A stretch of DNA of 64,000 nt from Bacteroidota bacterium (GTDB lineage: Bacteria; Bacteroidota; Bacteroidia; B-17B0; Aurantibacillaceae). Shown one piece after another: positions 873 to 40,575 of this stretch (position 1 is its first letter; each line of letters starts with the position of its first letter). The notes under the pieces are model-generated. The model was given only the letters and a program-made list of their open reading frames with translations, was not told where the DNA came from and searched no databases. The stretch lies in contig OMJH01000060.1 in the NCBI GenBank assembly GCA_900299295.1, forward strand, positions 1 through 64,000. Reading direction: 5' to 3'. The position numbers and the translations under genes were made by a program.

Positions 873-2177
873 ATGGCGAATGTAGTTGCAATAATCGGAC
901 GGCCGAATGTGGGAAAGTCAACCTTGTTTAACCGGCTAACCGAAACACGCGAAGCGATTGTGGATGCCATTGCCGGTGTAACGCGCGATCGTCATTACGG
1001 AAAATCGGAATGGAATGGTGTTGAATTCAGCTTGATTGATACAGGCGGATACATTCGCGGATCGGATGATGTTTTTGAAGCAGAAATTCGACGCCAGGTA
1101 CAAATTGCCATTGATGAGTGCAGTGTGATGTTGTTTGTAGTGGATGTGAACGATGGCATTACTGATTACGATAAAGAAGTAGCGAAACTCGTTCGAAAAA
1201 GTGGAAAAGCTTGTCTTCTTGTTGCGAATAAGTCGGACAACGCCGAGCGTGCTGCATATGGAGGTGAATTTTACAGCTTGGGTTTGGGAGAAGTGTTTCC
1301 GGTTTCTGCTATTAACGGCAGCGGGACGGGTGAGCTTTTGGACGAGCTGGTTAAAAAATTTTCGCACGATCACGGAATAATAGAAGATACCTCGGTTCCG
1401 AAAATTGCAATTGTGGGTCGGCCCAATGTTGGAAAATCATCATTAACCAACGCGCTGCTCGGTGAGGAAAGAAATATTGTTACGGACGTCGCCGGAACCA
1501 CGCGCGATGCAATCAACACGCGTTACAAGGCATTCGGTCACGATTTGATTTTGATAGATACGGCAGGAATCCGTAAGAAAGCCAAGGTAGAGGAGGATCT
1601 CGAATTTTACAGTGTCATGCGCTCCATCAAGGCCATTGAAAATTGTGATGTGTGTGTATTGATACTGGATGCCACGCAGGGAATCGAAGCGCAGGATCTG
1701 GCTATTTTCCGGCTTGCTGTAAAAAATCACAAAGGAATAGTAATCGCCGTGAATAAATGGGATCTTGAAGAAAAGGAAACCAACACAGCCAAAGAGTACG
1801 AAGATTTTATTCGTAATCAGACGGCGCCTTTTCGTGATATTCCTATTGTGTTCATAAGTGCAACGAACAAGCAACGTATTTTAAAGGTAGTGGAAATGGC
1901 CATGCAGGTTTACCAAAACAAGACACGAAAAATTTCAACCAGCGAATTGAACGATTTCTTTCTTCCGTTGATTGAAAATTACGGACCTCCTGCAATAAAA
2001 GGAAAATACATCAAAGTAAAGTATGTTACTCAATTACCGAATATGCCCGTGTTTGTTTTTTTCTGCAATCTTCCGCAGTACGTCAACGAACCCTATATTC
2101 GCTTTCTGGAAAATAAACTGCGTGAACAATGGGAATTTTCAGGAGTACCGATTGATATTTTCTTCCGGAGAAAATAA
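873..2177 (+). CDS. der: Ribosome biogenesis GTPase Der (EngA)
   Basis: Tandem-GTPase needed for maturation of the 50S ribosomal subunit. Two G domains are clear: a GRPNVGKS P-loop at residues 9-16 with a DTGGY switch, and a second GRPNVGKS near residue 182 with DTAGIR and NKWD. A KH-like C-terminal domain ends in the basic tail FFRRK. The length of 434 residues is normal. An upstream TTG at 855 is open in frame, but ATG 873 directly begins the family N-terminus [16 protein letters not shown] and is preferred. The gene is monocistronic and converges on trmH, whose stop lies 12 bases away. Confidence 0.97.
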
Positions 2178-30911: not shown

Positions 30912-33809
30912 ATGATTAAGCCGGGAATTCCAGATAATGAGACAGAACGTCTCGCTGCACTTTTGGAATATCAACTTAATGGTGAGTTTGAGGAGGCGGA
31001 GTATAAGGATATTGTAATTGCAGCTTCCGATGTATGTAATGTACCAACTGCCTTCATATCTATCATTGAAGAGAACAAACAGCGCATCATTGCAAGTACC
31101 GGATTAAACATAAATGAAACTACCCGGGATGTTTCATTTTGTGGACATACAATCAATAAACCCGCTGAGCTTACCATTATTTCTGATGCTCGGAAGGATC
31201 CACGTTTTTCTGATAATCCATTAGTTACAGGCGAACCTAAGGTTGTTTTTTATGCCGGTGTTCCTTTGGTAGATGACAACGGCTTCGCTCTCGGTACGCT
31301 GTGTATAATGGATAACAGTCCTAGAACCTTAACCGATGGTCAACTCAAAATTTTAAAAATTCTTTCCAGAAAAATTTTAGCAATTCTATCACTAAAAAGA
31401 ACAAACAGGGTCATGTTTCAGGAGCGGAAGAATTTTTTCGAGCTGTTGAATAACACTACACCGTTTTTTTTATTGATCAATACCGAAGGAAAAATTTTAG
31501 AGTCAGGTAAAAACTATAAAAAAGCTGTTCCAGAACTTGAAAATGGGACTACATTTGATTTGTTTTTTAATTGGGAAGGCAATCTTACTTTCAGGGAAAT
31601 TGTCAGTTCGGGACATAGTAAACTTTATTTTTTTAGTTGCAAAAATCAAAAACAGCGATATAAGTGTTCAATACGCCACTATAACCAAAACGCCTATTTA
31701 TTATATGCCATAGCTGTGGTAAATGCTGATTTGTCGATTGGTAATTATAAAATTAATCTGAATGATTTTCCAAAGCAGGATTATATCGCAGAGTTTTTGT
31801 TTTTGCAGCAGGGAGCAAATCGGGGCCTTAAAGAATCTGAGCGGTTGAATAATTCATTGAGAACCCGTAATAATGAGTTAGAACTGGCAAAAAATGCTTT
31901 AGTGAATGCCAACGCCGTGCTGGAACAGCGAATAGAAGAAAGGACCAAGCAGATAAAAAACCTTGCATTATTTCCGGAACAAAATCCAAATCCTGTATTA
32001 GAAATAGATATTTCACAGGAAAAAATTAATTATATGAATCCGGCTGCCAAAAAACAGATTTTTAGAAACGGCGATTTGGACTATGAACAATTATACAACT
32101 ATTTAAAACTTGAAAGCAGGCAAAAAACCGATTACGAATCAGGTAAGCTAGAAATTTCCAACCATGATAAAATTTACGAAAGAAGTTTGTTTTATACCAA
32201 CACGGACACAATTCGTATTTACCTGCACGATATTACGCTTATTCGAAATAACGAACGCAAAGAACGTTTACGTCAGGAAAAATCGTTATTGACACAAAAA
32301 ACACTTTTGAATTTGCGGAATATAAACCGCGAAATAGCACTTGCTGAAAAATTTAAAATTATTCTTCGTGAAACTTCCGGTATTATGGGCTGCAGCCGAT
32401 GCAGTGTCTGGCTATATAATTCAGAACAAGGAAGCATCGCTTCCGAATTCATTTACAGTGCGGAAAACGATTCGTTTATAGCTGGATTAACGCTTTTTAA
32501 AAAAGATTTTCCGGCGTACTTTAAAGCGCTCGCTTCAAAAACGGTGATTGATGCAGAGGACGCAGAAATGCATCCTGCAACCTGTGAATTTAAAGATGTT
32601 TATCTCCGGCCACTGAACATCGTGTCAATGCTTTATGTTCCGCTGATTAAGTCAAATGAATTAATCGGTGTGCTTTGTTGCGAATATACAGGCACTAGAC
32701 GAGAATTTTCGGAAGAGGATATTAATTTTTCACGCTCAGTTTCCGATGTTATCATTCTGGCAATTGAATCAGATCAATTGATGATTTCGAATTCACGGCT
32801 TACGGAATTAAATGCTAACCTAAAAGATGCCTATGATCAGTTGGTGGCACTGCAATCAGATGTTATAAAACAAGAAAAGTTGGCCACGCTTGGAACCCTC
32901 ATCGCAGGCATCGCACACGAAATAAATACCCCGCTAGGAGCAATTAAGGCGTCCAACGATAATTTAAATGATTCATTTTTAAACTTATTTAGTGAACAAG
33001 TAACAAAACTGGGCTTTGAAGATATGCATGCAGGTGTTAGGTTGTTTTTACTTTCCAACAAAAAAAGCTTCCCGAAAACTACGCGCGAAGAAAGAAATAG
33101 TATTCGGAAATTGGAAGCGGAACTTATTGAAAGAAAAATTCGAATTGAGAATTCGAATTTTTTTGCTCAAAAAATAGTGCAACTGAATCACGATTCCTTG
33201 TCAGTTGAATTAATTGATTTTATTAAGCATCCTAATGCAATTGAAATTTTTTCTTTTGCCTCAAATTTAAGTAAAGTTGTAAAATCAATCCACACAATTG
33301 GTCTGGCTGCTGACAAAGCAACCCGGGTTGTGCGTGCAATGAATAATTTTTCACACGGAAATATTGATGGTGAAATCACTCTGTTTAATCTTAAAGAAAG
33401 CATTGACAATGTAATTATAGTTTTATGGAATAGGATTAAACAGGGTGTTTCAATTAATCTGGATCTGCAGGATGATTTTTTAGTAAAAGGAAATCAGGAA
33501 GAGTTGTCCCAGGTATGGACAAACATAATAAATAACGCCATACAAGCTTCTAACGCGAAATGTACAATTAATATCAAACATGTGAGCACTGATAGGATTG
33601 ATACACTTATCTTTGCCAACGACGGCCCAATGATTCCCGAAGATGTTTTACCCAAAATTTTCGATCCTTTTTTCTCCACAAAAAAACGTGGAGAAGGTAC
33701 CGGTCTAGGTTTGAATATTGTTAAGAAAATAATTGAGAAACATAAGGGAGAGATTTTTTGCGAAAGTAATGCTCTCGAAACTCGTTTTATAATTAACTTA
33801 CCAAAATAA
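30912..33809 (+). CDS. Multi-domain sensor histidine kinase (H-NOX-associated)
   Basis: Soluble kinase of 965 residues, no transmembrane helix. Order: an N-terminal GAF domain (about 25-165, DVSFCGHTI, FYAGVPLVDDNG, GTLCIMD); a less clear PAS-like stretch; a coiled coil (about 300-350); another PAS-like segment (FPEQNPNPVLEID); a second GAF (about 480-625, MLYVPLIKSNELIGVLCCEY); HisKA with the phosphoacceptor His669 (GIAHEINTP); then about 190 residues before the ATPase N-box (WTNIINNAIQAS), instead of the usual 110 or so; and ATP-lid motifs (DPFFSTKKRGEGTGLGL). It lies six bases after the H-NOX gene and three before the first receiver. NO-loaded H-NOX probably controls it. Confidence 0.92.
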   Translation: MIKPGIPDNETERLAALLEYQLNGEFEEAEYKDIVIAASDVCNVPTAFISIIEENKQRIIASTGLNINETTRDVSFCGHTINKPAELTIISDARKDPRFSDNPLVTGEPKVVFYAGVPLVDDNGFALGTLCIMDNSPRTLTDGQLKILKILSRKILAILSLKRTNRVMFQERKNFFELLNNTTPFFLLINTEGKILESGKNYKKAVPELENGTTFDLFFNWEGNLTFREIVSSGHSKLYFFSCKNQKQRYKCSIRHYNQNAYLLYAIAVVNADLSIGNYKINLNDFPKQDYIAEFLFLQQGANRGLKESERLNNSLRTRNNELELAKNALVNANAVLEQRIEERTKQIKNLALFPEQNPNPVLEIDISQEKINYMNPAAKKQIFRNGDLDYEQLYNYLKLESRQKTDYESGKLEISNHDKIYERSLFYTNTDTIRIYLHDITLIRNNERKERLRQEKSLLTQKTLLNLRNINREIALAEKFKIILRETSGIMGCSRCSVWLYNSEQGSIASEFIYSAENDSFIAGLTLFKKDFPAYFKALASKTVIDAEDAEMHPATCEFKDVYLRPLNIVSMLYVPLIKSNELIGVLCCEYTGTRREFSEEDINFSRSVSDVIILAIESDQLMISNSRLTELNANLKDAYDQLVALQSDVIKQEKLATLGTLIAGIAHEINTPLGAIKASNDNLNDSFLNLFSEQVTKLGFEDMHAGVRLFLLSNKKSFPKTTREERNSIRKLEAELIERKIRIENSNFFAQKIVQLNHDSLSVELIDFIKHPNAIEIFSFASNLSKVVKSIHTIGLAADKATRVVRAMNNFSHGNIDGEITLFNLKESIDNVIIVLWNRIKQGVSINLDLQDDFLVKGNQEELSQVWTNIINNAIQASNAKCTINIKHVSTDRIDTLIFANDGPMIPEDVLPKIFDPFFSTKKRGEGTGLGLNIVKKIIEKHKGEIFCESNALETRFIINLPK

Positions 33810-33812
33810 AAC

Positions 33813-34211
33813 ATGAAAAAAATAGCTATTCTATCCGTTGACGATGAAAAAATCATTCTTGATTCTATTCGGATACAGATGGAAAAAAATTTTCACAACA
33901 AATTTATTTTTGAATTTGCTGAAAGCGCCGATGAAGCACTGGAACTTGTAGATTATTTAATTGATTCAAAGGTGGATATTCTTTTAATCATATCCGATTA
34001 CCAGATGCCGGGCATGAAAGGCGATGAGTTTGCTGGTACTCTTAAAAAGAAATTACCGGAAGTGAACATTGTAATGCTCACCGGACAGATGCCTGGAGAA
34101 ATTTCAACCGTTTTACTGGAGAATAAAATAATTCTCAATGTGATTCAAAAACCATGGAACGAGAATGACCTTATTAATTTGATAAATAAGGTATCCGAGG
34201 AAATCGAGTGA
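33813..34211 (+). CDS. Single-domain response regulator (receiver 1)
   Basis: CheY-like receiver of 132 residues without output domain. Acidic pair Asp10-Asp11, phosphoacceptor Asp62 (IISDYQMPG), switch Thr in MLTGQ and Lys in IQKPW are all present. It begins three bases after the kinase stop and its own stop overlaps the next start (GTGA), so all three are almost surely translated together. It probably shuttles phosphate or competes for the kinase; the final output is unknown. The sequence is only moderately like that of the second receiver. Confidence 0.92.
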   Translation: MKKIAILSVDDEKIILDSIRIQMEKNFHNKFIFEFAESADEALELVDYLIDSKVDILLIISDYQMPGMKGDEFAGTLKKKLPEVNIVMLTGQMPGEISTVLLENKIILNVIQKPWNENDLINLINKVSEEIE

Positions 34212-34591
34212 AAAGAGCAATTTTATTAATAGATGATGAATTCATTATTCTGGAGGCGCTTCGAATTCAGGTAAGCCGTGTTATCCCGGATGACATTCAT
34301 CTTGAAGTAGCAACCTCTGGAGAAGAGGCCAAAGAACTCATCACGGAGTTTAAGAAATCAAATTATAATTTGTTATTAATCATCACAGACTACAACCTGG
34401 ACGATTTGAAGGGGACGGAAATTTTACAGTTTGCTTTGGAACATTTTCCAGCTACAAAAAAGGCAATTCTTACAGGTCAGGCGGACGATCATGCCATTTC
34501 CGAATTCAAGAATACGCTGGGATTAGAAGCTCGTTTTCCAAAGCCCTGGGACTCTAATGAGATCAAAGCATTTATTCAGTCATCCATCTGA
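34208..34591 (+). CDS. Single-domain response regulator (receiver 2)
   Basis: Receiver of 127 residues, GTG start within the stop of receiver 1. Acidic pair Asp9-Asp10, phosphoacceptor Asp61 (IITDYNLDD), switch Thr in ILTGQ and Lys in RFPKPW are present. No effector domain. It ends the H-NOX cluster. Like receiver 1 it has the KPW variant after the conserved Lys, and the pair may have arisen by an old duplication. Its output partner is not visible here. Confidence 0.92.
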   Translation: MKRAILLIDDEFIILEALRIQVSRVIPDDIHLEVATSGEEAKELITEFKKSNYNLLLIITDYNLDDLKGTEILQFALEHFPATKKAILTGQADDHAISEFKNTLGLEARFPKPWDSNEIKAFIQSSI

Positions 34592-34663: not shown

Positions 34664-34924
34664 TTAACGATCGTTCTCAGTGGGGTTTTCCATCCTTCTC
34701 TTCACTTCCTGAACTTGTTCTTCCACCTCGTTGGACACGTCCTTAAAACTGCTACGCACCTCTTGCTGAATTCCGTTGGCAGCATCTTTAAATTCTCTCA
34801 TGCTCCTGCCCAGGGTGCGTGCAATTGTTGGAACACCTTTACCGCCAAACATCAGTAATACCACAAGCAGAATTAAAATCAGCTCTCCTCCTCCCAGATT
34901 CAAAAATAACAAGATGTCATTCAT
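34664..34924 (-). CDS. tatA: Twin-arginine translocase subunit TatA/TatE
   Basis: Pore-forming subunit for export of folded proteins. The product has 86 residues: one transmembrane helix (ELILILLVVLLMF), the FGGKGVP hinge, an amphipathic helix (TLGRSMREFKDAANG) and a charged tail. Size and hinge fit TatA better than TatB. It converges on the H-NOX cluster. It follows a 35-residue membrane micro-ORF by 11 bases and probably shares its promoter. No tatC is in the window. Confidence 0.93.
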   Translation of the reverse strand: MNDILLFLNLGGGELILILLVVLLMFGGKGVPTIARTLGRSMREFKDAANGIQQEVRSSFKDVSNEVEEQVQEVKRRMENPTENDR

Positions 34925-34935
34925 CTTTATTTGTA

Positions 34936-35043
34936 TTAAAAATCTTTATTTCTTCTAAACTTAATAAGTGTATAAATTCCAAGTATAAAAACTGCGGCAA
35001 CAAATACCACCACAAAAATATCACCGGCTTCAATCTTGTACAT
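34936..35043 (-). CDS. Small single-helix membrane protein upstream of tatA
   Basis: ORF of 35 codons, not long enough for usual gene callers. The translation starts MYKIEAGDIF, continues as a strongly hydrophobic helix (VVVFVAAVFILGIYTLI) and ends in a basic tail with KFRRNKDF, so the C-terminus should be cytoplasmic by the positive-inside rule. Support: a perfect minus-strand TAnnTTTG element lies ten bases upstream, and its stop is 11 bases before the tatA start, so it would be the first gene of the tatA transcript. Function is unknown; a role with Tat is only a guess from position. Confidence 0.65.
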   Translation of the reverse strand: MYKIEAGDIFVVVFVAAVFILGIYTLIKFRRNKDF

Positions 35044-35053
35044 TTCCACATTT

Positions 35054-35061
35054 CAAATGTA
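35054..35061 (-). promoter_or_regulatory. -7 promoter element of the micro-ORF-tatA unit
   Basis: Minus-strand TACATTTG, a perfect TAnnTTTG match, ten bases before ATG 35043 and about 130 before tatA. Confidence 0.55.
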
Positions 35062-35083: not shown

Positions 35084-35111
35084 AAAAAACCCCGACACAA
35101 ATTTATCGGGG
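35084..35111 (-). terminator. Rho-independent terminator of secDF
   Basis: Stem CCCCGA (35090-35095) and TCGGGG (35106-35111) with a ten-base loop; on the minus strand a six-T tract follows. It lies 26 bases after the secDF stop. Confidence 0.85.
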
Positions 35112-35136: not shown

Positions 35137-38100
35137 TCAGACTTTTGCTTTTTTGTTGAAGTCCACAACAATCGGCGTGGAGATGCACAACGATGAGTAA
35201 GTTCCGATGATACGCCCAACCAATAACGCAAAGATGAAACCACGGATACTATCACCGCCAAAGACAAAAATAACGAGTAACACAAAGAAAACGGTTAGTG
35301 ATGTAAGAATTGTACGACTTAAAGTTGAGTTCAACGCAAAATTGATAAGTTTATTTCGTTCTTCGCCGTGAACGTCGTCTTTTCCGCTATCTGCCAATCG
35401 CTCACGAATACGGTCAAACACAACCACGGTTTCTGTCATAGTGTAACCCATTACCGTTAAAATTGCAGCGATGAAATCCTGTCCAATTTCAAGTGAAAAG
35501 GGGAGCATTTTATCAAAAATCGTATAGAAAGACAACACCACGAGTACGTCATGGAACAAGGCGACAACCGCACCTAATCCGTACTGCCATTTTTTGAAAC
35601 GGATAACAATATAAACGAACATCAGCAGACAGGAGAACAATACGGATAAGTAAGCTTTATAAAGAATATCGCTGGCGATAGCAGGCCCTACCTTCTGTTC
35701 CTGAACAATCTGAAAGTCGCTTCCCAGCTGCTTAAGCTGAGTGGAAATTTCTTCACGCACTTTAATATCAACTTCGTTACCCGGTTTGTCAACCATGTAG
35801 GAGGTGGAGATTTTTAACTGTGTGGTTGAACCCACAGTTGTAACTTCCGGAGTGGCGCCAAACAATGTGCTCAGCTTGCTTTTTACTTCTTCCGGATTCA
35901 TTTCTTTGTTGAACTGTACCTGATATGTACGTCCACCTTTGAAGTCAATTCCTAAATTAAATCCACCGTTTTTAAAATAAAAAACAACGCCGGTAATTAT
36001 TACGATGGCAGAAATAGCATAATACACTTTACGACGGCCAACAAAATCAAAGGCAACGTTTTTGAAAGCGTTGCGCGTAAAACTATTATCAAAGCTAATG
36101 TCTTTTTTACGGGCAATAAACATTTCAAAAATTAAGCGTGTCAGTAGAACTGCGGCAAACAGCGAGGATAGAATACCAACAATCAGCGTTGCGGCAAAAC
36201 CTTGAATAGGACCACTTCCGAACGAGAAAAGAATGATACCTAAAATGAGAAGCGTGAAGTTACTGTCGATAATGGAAGACATCGCATGTTTGAATCCTTC
36301 ACGGATGGCCAGCGCATTCGATTTACCCAACGCAAGTTCTTCACGGATACGCTCAAATATCAGGATGTTGGCATCCACTGAAAGTCCGATGGTAAGTACG
36401 ATACCGGCAATTCCGGGAAGCGTTAACACTTCCCCCCATGATGCAAGAACGCCCATGATGAAGAAAATGTTGATGAATAAGGCAATGTCGGCAACAAGGC
36501 CAGAGCGATTGTAATAGGAGAACATAAAGAGTAAAATCACCAGCACAGCTCCCACAAAACTCAACCATCCGCTGTTGATGGCTTCTTCACCAAGGGTTGC
36601 ACCTACCTGAGAAGCCGCCACAATCTTTGCAGGGGCAGGAAGTTTACCTGCAGAAAGCACTGAAGCAAGCGCCTGCGCTTCCTTAATGTCAAAGGCACCT
36701 GTAATTTGTGAGCGTCCGTTCGGAATAACGCTATTCACGTTTGGTGCCGAGAACACAATACCATCCATTACAATTGCAATGGCTTTACCACGTTTTTGTT
36801 CGTCGTTCTTTATGCCAACATTCAACTGACGAGCCTGCTCAACGCAACGTTCCGTAATGTTTTTCCAGTCATCTGCTGCTTTTCCATTCATGGTCATATC
36901 GATGTCGGGATGACCTAAATCATCGAAGCCCTGCGATGCTTTGTCAATCACGTCGCCGCTCAGCGCAGGTTTCAAGGCGTTGTATTCAGAGCTTTTCAAC
37001 GCATAAAGTTTTAATACGCCACGCTCAACATACGCATCAAAAGCCCACTTTAAATCTTTTTTGAACGACTCACGAATTTTTGGGTGGCGCAAATAAGCCA
37101 TTAATTTAGCGGTGTCGGACTTTGCAACATATCCTACAACCGGACCCGGAACAGCGTAACCTTTGTTATCAATGCTTACTGATAAGTAACGGAAAATCGG
37201 ACTTGCTTTAAAGAAGCTATCGCGTTGAGTTAATTTCGAATTGCTTGCTGAAGAATCAGCTTTTTCCTTTGTTGAATCTGCAGCAGCAAGTGCAGTTGAA
37301 TCCGCGGAATTAGTAGCGGTGCTGTCTGTTTTCTTTTCTTCGATGTCTTTCAGGATAAACTGGCGTACACGTTTGTTGGCGATTTCCCAAACCGGAATCA
37401 GATCGATATTATCATAAGTTTCCCAGAATTCAAGGTTAGCTGTGCGCTCAAGAAGTGTTTTTACTTTCTCAGGGTTTTTTGCGCCGGGTAATTCAACCAA
37501 AACTCTACCGCTGGAAGCAGATCCGATGGAACGGATGTTCGGTTGATTGACGCCTATACTTTGAATACGTGAACGCAAGGTGGTTTCAACGTTTTTCAGG
37601 CTCTCAGAAATTTCAGCGCGAAGGATATCAACTACCGCCGCATTCTCCGCATTAAAACTGATTTTATTTCTGATTTCAGTGGTTTGGAAAAACGGAGCCA
37701 ATTTACCACCGGGAACCAATGTAACATATTCTTGTGCAAACAAATCAGCGAAATCAGTGTTCTTTCCGCCCAATTTAATCCTTGCGTTTTCAAGTGCAAG
37801 ATTGAAATTCGCGTCCTTGTTGTTTCCGGAAAGATTTTTAATGATATCACCGACGGACACTTCAAGCACCACGTTAATACCACCGCGCAAATCAAGTCCA
37901 AGGTTAATCTCTCGCTTCTTGCAATCTTCAAATGTGAAATCAGCGACAAGCACATCGTAAACCTTCACATCATTCAGTGAATCGTAATAAGAAGATAATA
38001 AGGTGTCTCTGTATAGGGAACGAATTTTTTGCGCTAAGATTTTATCATCTGCGGAAAGAGATTTTATTTTTGACGCGTAAGTTGGTGTGGAAAGTTTGCG

Positions 38101-38220
38101 ATCTACAGCCGATTCTGCTTTCTGTTCTTCGGATTTTACCACCCAGGTAAAAGACAGGTAAAACAAACAGCACAAGGCGAGCAGCGCGGTGAATACCCAG
38201 ATGGGACCTTTGTTTTGCAT
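35137..38220 (-). CDS. secDF: Protein translocase subunit SecDF (fused)
   Basis: Fusion of SecD and SecF, 1027 residues, that uses the proton gradient to drive late steps of Sec export. The SecD half has an N-terminal helix, LGLDLRGGINVVLEV, a large periplasmic region with a low-complexity Ser/Ala/Asp insert (about residues 300-325) and helices with GLSVDANILIFERIREE. The SecF half begins near residue 715 with the LGIDFKGGRTYQVQF motif and has GYTMTETVVVFDRIRE. Fusion of the two is usual in Bacteroidota. It is monocistronic with its own promoter and terminator. Confidence 0.97.
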   Translation of the reverse strand: MQNKGPIWVFTALLALCCLFYLSFTWVVKSEEQKAESAVDRKLSTPTYASKIKSLSADDKILAQKIRSLYRDTLLSSYYDSLNDVKVYDVLVADFTFEDCKKREINLGLDLRGGINVVLEVSVGDIIKNLSGNNKDANFNLALENARIKLGGKNTDFADLFAQEYVTLVPGGKLAPFFQTTEIRNKISFNAENAAVVDILRAEISESLKNVETTLRSRIQSIGVNQPNIRSIGSASSGRVLVELPGAKNPEKVKTLLERTANLEFWETYDNIDLIPVWEIANKRVRQFILKDIEEKKTDSTATNSADSTALAAADSTKEKADSSASNSKLTQRDSFFKASPIFRYLSVSIDNKGYAVPGPVVGYVAKSDTAKLMAYLRHPKIRESFKKDLKWAFDAYVERGVLKLYALKSSEYNALKPALSGDVIDKASQGFDDLGHPDIDMTMNGKAADDWKNITERCVEQARQLNVGIKNDEQKRGKAIAIVMDGIVFSAPNVNSVIPNGRSQITGAFDIKEAQALASVLSAGKLPAPAKIVAASQVGATLGEEAINSGWLSFVGAVLVILLFMFSYYNRSGLVADIALFINIFFIMGVLASWGEVLTLPGIAGIVLTIGLSVDANILIFERIREELALGKSNALAIREGFKHAMSSIIDSNFTLLILGIILFSFGSGPIQGFAATLIVGILSSLFAAVLLTRLIFEMFIARKKDISFDNSFTRNAFKNVAFDFVGRRKVYYAISAIVIITGVVFYFKNGGFNLGIDFKGGRTYQVQFNKEMNPEEVKSKLSTLFGATPEVTTVGSTTQLKISTSYMVDKPGNEVDIKVREEISTQLKQLGSDFQIVQEQKVGPAIASDILYKAYLSVLFSCLLMFVYIVIRFKKWQYGLGAVVALFHDVLVVLSFYTIFDKMLPFSLEIGQDFIAAILTVMGYTMTETVVVFDRIRERLADSGKDDVHGEERNKLINFALNSTLSRTILTSLTVFFVLLVIFVFGGDSIRGFIFALLVGRIIGTYSSLCISTPIVVDFNKKAKV

Positions 38221-38355: not shown

Positions 38356-40575
38356 ATGCTTTGTTTGCCTCGTATTACCAAATTTTCATTGGTTTTTCTT
38401 ATTAAGTTAATCACCTTCAGCGCAATTGCTCAGTCTGTTTTTTACCGTGATGATTCAGTTAAGGTATACTATGGGAACGAGCAATTGTTAAATCCCTGGG
38501 CGGGAGGTTTGAATTCTTCCATTTTTTCAACAACTGACCTCGATTTTGACGGAAACAAAGACTTGGTGGTTTTTGATAAGGAAAGCGCTAAAATACGCTG
38601 TTTCAGAAATTTAAGTGGCCCAGGTTACCCTTTATACAAACATGCACCACAATTTGAATACGCATTTCCTCAAGTTTCCGACTGGTTTTTACTGGCAGAT
38701 TACAATGCAGATGGAAAAGAGGACATTTTTACTTATACCACGGCCGGTTTCCGCGTTTTCAAAAATACCTCTCCAAATGGCGGCCCACTGCAATTTACCT
38801 TGATGTATCCGCTGGTATATTCGAACTACAACCCGGGCGGCACGCCCAATTGGCTCAACCTGTATTGTTCCTCAATCGGGTTCCCTGCCATTTCCGACAT
38901 TGATCTTGATGGTGATCTCGATGTTTTGACTTTTTCTGTTTTTGGAACCACCATTGAATATCATAAAAATATGGCGATCGAACTCGGATTACCACCTGAC
39001 TCCCTTCATTATGAAATTATTGACGATTGCTGGGGTGATTTTGCAGAGAACTCCTGTGCCACCACCTTAAATGCATGTCCAAATTTTGTAAAGTGGAATA
39101 CAATTTTAAATCCCGCAGCAAAATCAAATTTACATGCAGGCAGTTGTTTAACTTGTTTTGATGGTGACGGTGACGGGGATAAAGACTTGATGTTGGGTGA
39201 CATTTCTTGTGATTCAATGGATTATTATTTCAACACAGGCGACGCGCTAAACGCACATGTCGATTCAACAACGAAAGTTTTTCCCTCTTCTAAACCAATT
39301 AAAATGTCTTACTTCCCATGTTCTTACTATCTGGATACTGATAATGACGGTGTCCGTGATTTATTGGCAAGCCCGCTTACACCCACGGCAGCCGAAAATT
39401 TCAATTCCACCTGGCGATATAAAAATACCGGAACAGATCTCCAGCCGGTTTTCAGTTTTATTGAAAATAATTTTTTACAAGACAGCATGCTTGACTTTGG
39501 AACCGGAGCATTCCCTGCCATTGCAGATGAAAACGGCGATGGTTTGCCTGATATATTTGTAGGAAATACCGGTTACTTTGTAAATCCAGGCTTGCAATCC
39601 AAAATCGCTTTACTTCGCAACACAGGAACCTTAACTCATCCCGCTTTTACACTAACTTCAAGAAATTATGCCAATCTGGGCTCCTTAAATATTCAGAATA
39701 TGGCACCCGCTTTTGGTGACCTTGACGGCGACGGGGATCAGGATTTATTAATTGGAGATTACAACGGAACGCTTAGCTATTTCCAAAATACTGCAGGTTC
39801 AGGGAGCCCGATGAATTTTGTTTTGGTGAGTGCTCAGTGGAATAATATTGATATTGGTAATAATGCAATGCCGCAAATAATTGATGTTGACCGCGACGGA
39901 TTGAAAGATTTATTGATTGGAGGACGTAATGGTAAACTTTCTTTTTTCAAAAACACCGGAACAACTACTGTTCCCGTTTTCAGCTCAACCGCCACAAACA
40001 GTTTTTTCGGTGGAGTGAATGTTTGCAAACCACTTTATATTACCGGATTTGCAAGTCCGAATTTGCGTGATGTAAATGGAACCTTTGAATTAATTGTGGG
40101 TTCTGAGCGGGGTTATATTTATCGTTACGGAAATATTGATGGCAATCTTAGCGGCACATTTTCACTCATCGATTCCATTGGCTGGAACATTTGGGAAGGC
40201 GGAAAAGTTGCACCTTTTACCGGCGATTTAAATGCCGACGATATTCCGGAATTGTTATTGGGAAACCTGGATGGCGGAATTTCTTTTTTTAAAGGCGATT
40301 CACTTATGAGTGGTTTTCCAAATCATATTTCAACAGAAAATTTTAATGCATTTCCCAATCCCGCCAACGATTTTCTTACTGTACGATTTAATTCAAAAAC
40401 TTTTGTAAACCGTAAAATTCAACTCTTTGATATCAGCGGAAAAATTGTTTTGGAGAACACAACGCCGCAACCGGTTATTGAATTGCCTTTGCATAATTTT
40501 TCCGAAGGAATGTATTTCCTATGTTGCGAGGAAAAAGGAATTGTTTACTCAAAGAAAATTATCATTCGCCGATGA
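38356..40575 (+). CDS. FG-GAP/VCBS repeat protein with T9SS sorting domain
   Basis: Exported protein of 739 residues with a signal peptide (IKLITFSAIAQ). At least nine calcium-loop repeats of the DxDxDGxxDL kind are visible (DLDFDGNKDL, DYNADGKEDI, DIDLDGDLDV, DTDNDGVRDL, DENGDGLPDI, DLDGDGDQDL, DVDRDGLKDL), forming an integrin-type propeller. The C-terminus is a T9SS type A domain (AFPNPANDFLTV, LFDISGKIV, GMYFLCCEE), so it is carried to the cell surface. An imperfect element TAACTTTA lies just upstream. Its stop overlaps the next start by four bases. Ligand unknown. Confidence 0.88.
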   Translation: MLCLPRITKFSLVFLIKLITFSAIAQSVFYRDDSVKVYYGNEQLLNPWAGGLNSSIFSTTDLDFDGNKDLVVFDKESAKIRCFRNLSGPGYPLYKHAPQFEYAFPQVSDWFLLADYNADGKEDIFTYTTAGFRVFKNTSPNGGPLQFTLMYPLVYSNYNPGGTPNWLNLYCSSIGFPAISDIDLDGDLDVLTFSVFGTTIEYHKNMAIELGLPPDSLHYEIIDDCWGDFAENSCATTLNACPNFVKWNTILNPAAKSNLHAGSCLTCFDGDGDGDKDLMLGDISCDSMDYYFNTGDALNAHVDSTTKVFPSSKPIKMSYFPCSYYLDTDNDGVRDLLASPLTPTAAENFNSTWRYKNTGTDLQPVFSFIENNFLQDSMLDFGTGAFPAIADENGDGLPDIFVGNTGYFVNPGLQSKIALLRNTGTLTHPAFTLTSRNYANLGSLNIQNMAPAFGDLDGDGDQDLLIGDYNGTLSYFQNTAGSGSPMNFVLVSAQWNNIDIGNNAMPQIIDVDRDGLKDLLIGGRNGKLSFFKNTGTTTVPVFSSTATNSFFGGVNVCKPLYITGFASPNLRDVNGTFELIVGSERGYIYRYGNIDGNLSGTFSLIDSIGWNIWEGGKVAPFTGDLNADDIPELLLGNLDGGISFFKGDSLMSGFPNHISTENFNAFPNPANDFLTVRFNSKTFVNRKIQLFDISGKIVLENTTPQPVIELPLHNFSEGMYFLCCEEKGIVYSKKIIIRR

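Follow-up and report, generated by a model that had tools for sequence, protein, structure and literature searches.

What does the short interval between secDF and tatA encode in this Bacteroidota genome, and does its product take part in Tat export? The window, by which we mean the whole 64,000-nucleotide stretch of DNA that was analyzed, carries there a reading frame of 35 codons, which may be too short for usual gene prediction. The features that bear on it are listed below.

34936..35043, minus strand: the small gene, encoding a 35-residue one-helix membrane protein (relatives, dN/dS, helix model).
34664..34924, minus strand: tatA, starting 11 bases beyond the small gene and of a long, clade-specific type whose hinge reads FGGKGVPT (Pfam TatA_B_E, E 8.5e-16).
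35137..38220, minus strand: secDF, the upstream neighbor (NCBIfam SecDF NF009585, 1155.5 bits, cut-off 1037).
35054..35061, minus strand: TACATTTG, a −7 promoter element of Bacteroidota type (matches the consensus; box enriched in relatives).
35084..35111, minus strand: a terminator-like hairpin, CCCCGA / TCGGGG with a 10-base loop, followed by a T-run, in the space that separates secDF from the small gene (read directly).

The small gene runs on the minus strand from an ATG at 35043-35041 to a TAA stop at 34938-34936, and MYKIEAGDIFVVVFVAAVFILGIYTLIKFRRNKDF is its translation. An in-frame GTG at 35049 is an alternative start that gives 37 residues, and the products in relatives are 33-39 residues long. 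The interval 34936-35061, marked in the first-pass annotation, comprises the gene and the upstream −7 box; the 11-base gap to tatA claimed there is correct, with the tatA ATG at 34924. The same annotation had called the frame a likely real gene, and had named a frame not conserved in relatives or a near-neutral dN/dS as signs against it. The frame is kept in 76 of 81 genomes of the window's family, covering all 10 genera. Coding sequences were compared in 17 disjoint pairs; pS was 0.51 and pN 0.115, giving a pooled dN/dS of ~0.15, a rough value with pS near saturation, which indicates purifying selection. A chance reading frame was rejected because of this spread and this ratio. It is thus nearly certain that the small membrane-protein gene before tatA is real, conserved and under selection, in one family of Bacteroidia.

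When the single small-protein sequence was used for searching, 41 of the 60 relatives searched gave a match at E ≤ 10. The profile A1, built from 30 homologues, detected the above-mentioned 76 of 81 at E ≤ 0.01, and four weak rows of that search (E 2e-4 to 0.006) were left out of the copy count. In a class-wide sample of 295 genomes, 10 had an A1 match at E < 1e-12, all within the window's family; 55 had one at E ≤ 0.1, weak and mostly partial beyond those 10. In a phylum-wide sample, the window's own genome alone among 296 had a match at E ≤ 0.001. Outside the family, these two samples yielded one further match of note, a 43-residue frame on contig 121 of a genome (G060) from another family of the class (L119:1490-1613; A1 E 2.1e-6), for which no second genome of its family was there to compare. 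This frame has the same acid-to-glycine spacing as the small protein and lies 6 bases past the stop codon of a different gene, itself membrane-protein-like; no tatA was seen beside it in the 3 kb locus. We regard it as a doubtful case, a relative or a look-alike of the small protein.

Outside one genus (g7), tatA lies 24-474 bases downstream of the small gene in all 59 carriers, as distances between profile matches. Among the TatA matches listed, at least 54 of the 76 copies have a same-strand TatA at such a distance, and a further five copies adjoin tatA (G022, G027, G031, G035 and G324, all of genus g10). Counted between the end of the small gene and the first in-frame Met of tatA, the gap is −4 to +3 bases in 22 of the 27 distinct linked loci, where the genes touch or overlap. 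The remaining five gaps are 11 (the window), 45, 46, 87 and 440 bases; the longest is from G001, of the window's own genus, and may contain another gene.

Genus g7 is the exception, with the small gene linked to tatA in 0 of 17 carriers. Five g7 loci were read, and in each of them a response regulator is followed by the small gene and then by guaA. In a set of five g7 copies, the small gene starts 2-5 bases after the regulator's stop. It has moved to this place behind the regulator in L006, L009, L011, L013, L015, L142, L144, L146, L147 and L160. The regulator looks like the NarL/FixJ family by eye. At L146 (G333), an ORF that looks RelE-type by eye (1607-1934, minus strand in the orientation in which the locus was read) and ~600 bases separate the small gene from guaA, which is partial in this locus and changes frame after ~230 residues.

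Five of the 81 family genomes have no small-gene match. G003 and G012 are also without the long TatA; each has just one TatA, and it is short. The long TatA is present in G007, G347 and G349, and the missing small gene may reflect assembly gaps in these three, because G347 and G349 also have no match to the g7 response regulator at E ≤ 1e-30, and in G007 only 114 bases of contig remain beyond the regulator match.

The secDF side of the locus was compared in other Bacteroidota, where 29 of 80 secDF loci had both secDF and tatA on one strand (seven loci matched to the window's family are not among the 29). No small hydrophobic ORF, defined by an ATG start and a mean hydropathy >1.6, was found in the secDF-tatA gap of these 29 loci. 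In the same loci (from L032-L111), which represent many other Bacteroidota, tatA comes after secDF, in most cases no more than a few hundred bases away. Because of this recurrent order, the secDF-tatA linkage looks older than the small gene.

TAnnTTTG is the −7 consensus of Bacteroidota promoters. TACATTTG (35061-35054) matches it perfectly and ends 10 bases before the small-gene ATG. Of the perfect promoter that had been proposed at this spacing, the −7 element thus stands, but reading the sequence before the small gene revealed no clean −33 TTTG. A sigma-70 promoter scan listed no site at TACATTTG. Among the 27 distinct tatA-linked copies, 13 have a strict TAnnTTTG within 90 bases upstream of the codon for the acidic residue described below, versus 1.9 expected from shuffles. 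The hairpin at 35084-35111 was outside the limits of the terminator scan, which took loops of 3-8 only. Because this terminator-like hairpin separates them from secDF, the small gene and tatA seem to be transcribed as a separate unit.

Two neighboring groups of genes lie on the plus strand. A 965-residue sensor-kinase-like ORF, read from its translation, and two proteins with Response_reg receiver domains (Pfam) occupy 30912-34591 and head towards the 3′ end of tatA. Divergent from secDF, 38356-40575 encodes an FG-GAP repeat protein of 739 residues that carries a Por_Secre_tail domain (Pfam), a sorting domain of proteins exported by type IX secretion.

The tatA beside the small gene is itself of a clade-specific type. 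At least two TatA matches were present in 70 of 81 family genomes, and the long TatAs beside the small gene have open frames of 82-108 residues (54 copies). The hinge [GSA]KG[IVML]P[NTS] occurs in 28 of 28 distinct long TatAs adjoining the small gene, counted after L133, a TatA from another family, was dropped. It occurs in 0 of 30 TatAs from secDF loci, none of these from family-matched loci, and in 0 of 10 TatAs labeled as the short type. The g7 long TatAs have it in 16 of 16, including those of G007, G347 and G349, though they are unlinked to the small gene.

Of the 81 family genomes, 76 gave a TatC match. The window's own assembly (G000) gave no TatC match, and its second TatA match is at the very edge of a contig (196:7-147), so both are probably explained by an assembly gap. 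In PMC5201420 and PMC13323110, the TatA/TatB helix is described as docking between the subunits of TatC, where its residue 8 (E or Q) lies at a polar cluster; in E. coli TatC, T208 and Q215 belong to this cluster. The motif ITPSPDVTSQ is kept in the TatC of all 10 loci read, all from g7, and may be equivalent to that polar-cluster site.

The small protein shares several features with the docking helix. Its structure model is one straight helix over residues 6-31 (mean pLDDT 89.9), bearing out the single hydrophobic helix with a basic end that had been read from the translation. Each of the 40 distinct sequences has D or E at one position, which in 35 of them is 8 or 9 residues away from the closest Met, and G22 and F29 are invariant among the 30 homologues of A1. 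The acid near position 8 and a glycine 14 residues further along are arranged as in the TatC-docking helix of TatA/TatB. Common to the small protein and TatA/TatB (PF02416, TIGR01410, TIGR01411) are also a single helix, N-out by prediction in the small protein, a very short N-terminus, a glycine ending the hydrophobic stretch and a gene adjoining tatA. On the other hand, the small protein has no FG-P hinge motif, no amphipathic helix and no tail: only ~13 residues follow G22, where TatA/TatB continue into hinge and amphipathic helix, and its hydrophobic stretch is ~19 residues versus ~14.

This likeness was quantified by hhalign, which aligned A1 with TatA in register, the acid on Glu. P values were 2.9e-4 for neighboring TatA, 1.1e-4 for secDF-locus TatA, 1.4e-4 for all TatA and 0.0065 for short TatA, with scores of 23.5, 26.9, 26.9 and 17.5, respectively, versus ≤15.5 for 14 helix controls (slices of other proteins, at least seven of them from one family) and 12.6-17.8 for reversed profiles. 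When all columns were permuted 300 times, the observed score was reached 0 times with all TatA, once with secDF-locus TatA and once with neighboring TatA; when only hydrophobic columns were permuted 300 times, it was reached 3, 0 and 10 times, respectively. In the reverse direction, a TatA-helix profile run on 31 genomes ranked small genes 2, 3 and 6 among 27 non-TatA matches, finding the gene in 3 of 28 carrier genomes, all g10, and missing 25. Weak A1 matches in the secDF loci include TatA proteins, and those loci are rich in TatA.

The Pfam listings for the 30 members name 14 families, and TatA_B_E is not one of them. In NCBIfam, TatB (TIGR01410) has more matching members than any other model, 8 of 30 with a best E of 0.015, far off its cut-off of 56.5 bits, and none of the 30 reaches a curated TatA or TatB cut-off. 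Matches comparable to those of TatA/TatB come from cytochrome b559 beta and other models of small helices. Judged from these comparisons, the resemblance to the Tat helix appears real, but too modest to prove descent shared with TatA.

Other named families were tried and rejected. Over 30 members each, Pfam and NCBIfam gave weak matches only (best E 0.003 and 0.0025), as did PHROGs over 23 members (best E 0.011). FeoB-associated PF12669 matched 9 members (best E 0.032); the window's protein scores 12 bits versus a cut-off of 27 and has no cysteine. PF12669, CcmD_alt PF20077, cytochrome b559 beta TIGR01333 and ba3 oxidase subunit IIa (1xme) share its size and single helix and give profile or sequence scores at chance level. 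However, the small protein has no Cys-rich part, and their usual partner genes are not beside the window gene, whose neighbors are secDF and tatA. In the PDB, a profile search gave a best E of 0.21, with TatB last of 8 at E 1.8, and searches with two single members gave best E values of 0.052 and 0.0086; the latter match, a designed repeat protein with no stretch significant alone, was discarded.

In the literature, passages of PMC3827258 give the Tat gene arrangement of Bacteroidetes as AC plus a separate A/B, and that of Sphingobacteria as C and A apart; they do not mention the small gene. Passages of a small membrane protein survey (PMC10903887) name TatAy and nothing like the small protein. 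Among titles and abstract beginnings of open-licence PMC articles, we found no paper on a small gene before tatA or on a helix-only TatA.

We conceived that the small protein is a helix-only accessory Tat subunit working with the clade-specific long TatA (hinge FG[GSA]KGxP[NTS]), and we give this an even chance. By the positive-inside rule, it would sit N-out and C-in. Co-made with TatA, it could occupy the polar-cluster site of TatC or pair with TatA; having no amphipathic helix, it could hold the receptor place or cap TatA assemblies, adding no membrane thinning itself. It may have originated as a tandem tatA copy cut down to its helix. This role is supported by tatA downstream in 59/59 carriers outside g7 at gaps of −4 to +3 in 22/27 loci, by the acid in 40/40 sequences, by hhalign scores above the 14 helix controls, by reverse ranks of 2, 3 and 6, by the TatB model in 8/30 members, by the joint absence from G003 and G012, by the long-TatA hinge (28/28, and 16/16 in g7) and by ITPSPDVTSQ in TatC of 10/10 g7 loci. 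It is weakened by the 17/17 unlinked g7 carriers, by the long TatA alone in G007, G347 and G349 (perhaps owing to assembly gaps), by curated cut-offs that no member reaches, by small-helix models scoring as well, by the reverse search finding 3/28 carriers and by hydrophobic-column permutations reaching the score up to 10/300 times. A more specific form, in which a TatA-type subunit stripped down to the membrane helix docks on TatC via the residue-8 acid while the co-translated TatA with the changed hinge thins the membrane, is rather unlikely.

Alternatively, the small membrane protein might be unrelated to Tat, its place before tatA being inherited operon history and its helix likeness generic, of a kind to be expected between any short N-out helices that carry an acid on the outside and basic residues on the inside. 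The gene's retention in 17 genomes of g7 at a distance from tatA, where the five loci read place it after a regulator, fits this, and so does the comparable matching of several other small-helix families. However, tatA linkage and tight spacing in nine other genera and joint absence with the long TatA in G003 and G012 speak against it, and the alignment scores exceed the helix, reversed and most permuted controls. We consider this alternative a serious one, though somewhat short of probable. A regulator or assembly factor of TatA, acting as an oligomerization brake or insertion aid and never entering the TatC site, is improbable: overlapping genes suggest matched synthesis and the lack of an amphipathic helix suits it, but it leaves unexplained a conserved acid at the TatC-binding position of TatA/TatB. 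A leader peptide or attenuator, acting through its translation and not its product, would agree with a short frame that opens the tatA transcript at its 5′ end and with a promoter close in front. It is contradicted by the amino-acid sequence conserved over its length at a dN/dS of ~0.15 and by retention in g7 away from tatA, and we give it hardly any credence.

Even if it is not a Tat subunit, the small protein represents a conserved family without a convincing Pfam or NCBIfam match. If it is an accessory Tat subunit, it would provide a natural test of what the membrane helix of TatA/TatB does without the amphipathic helix. If the reduced-TatA form of this role is true, docking and membrane thinning would be split between two proteins in one clade of Bacteroidia.
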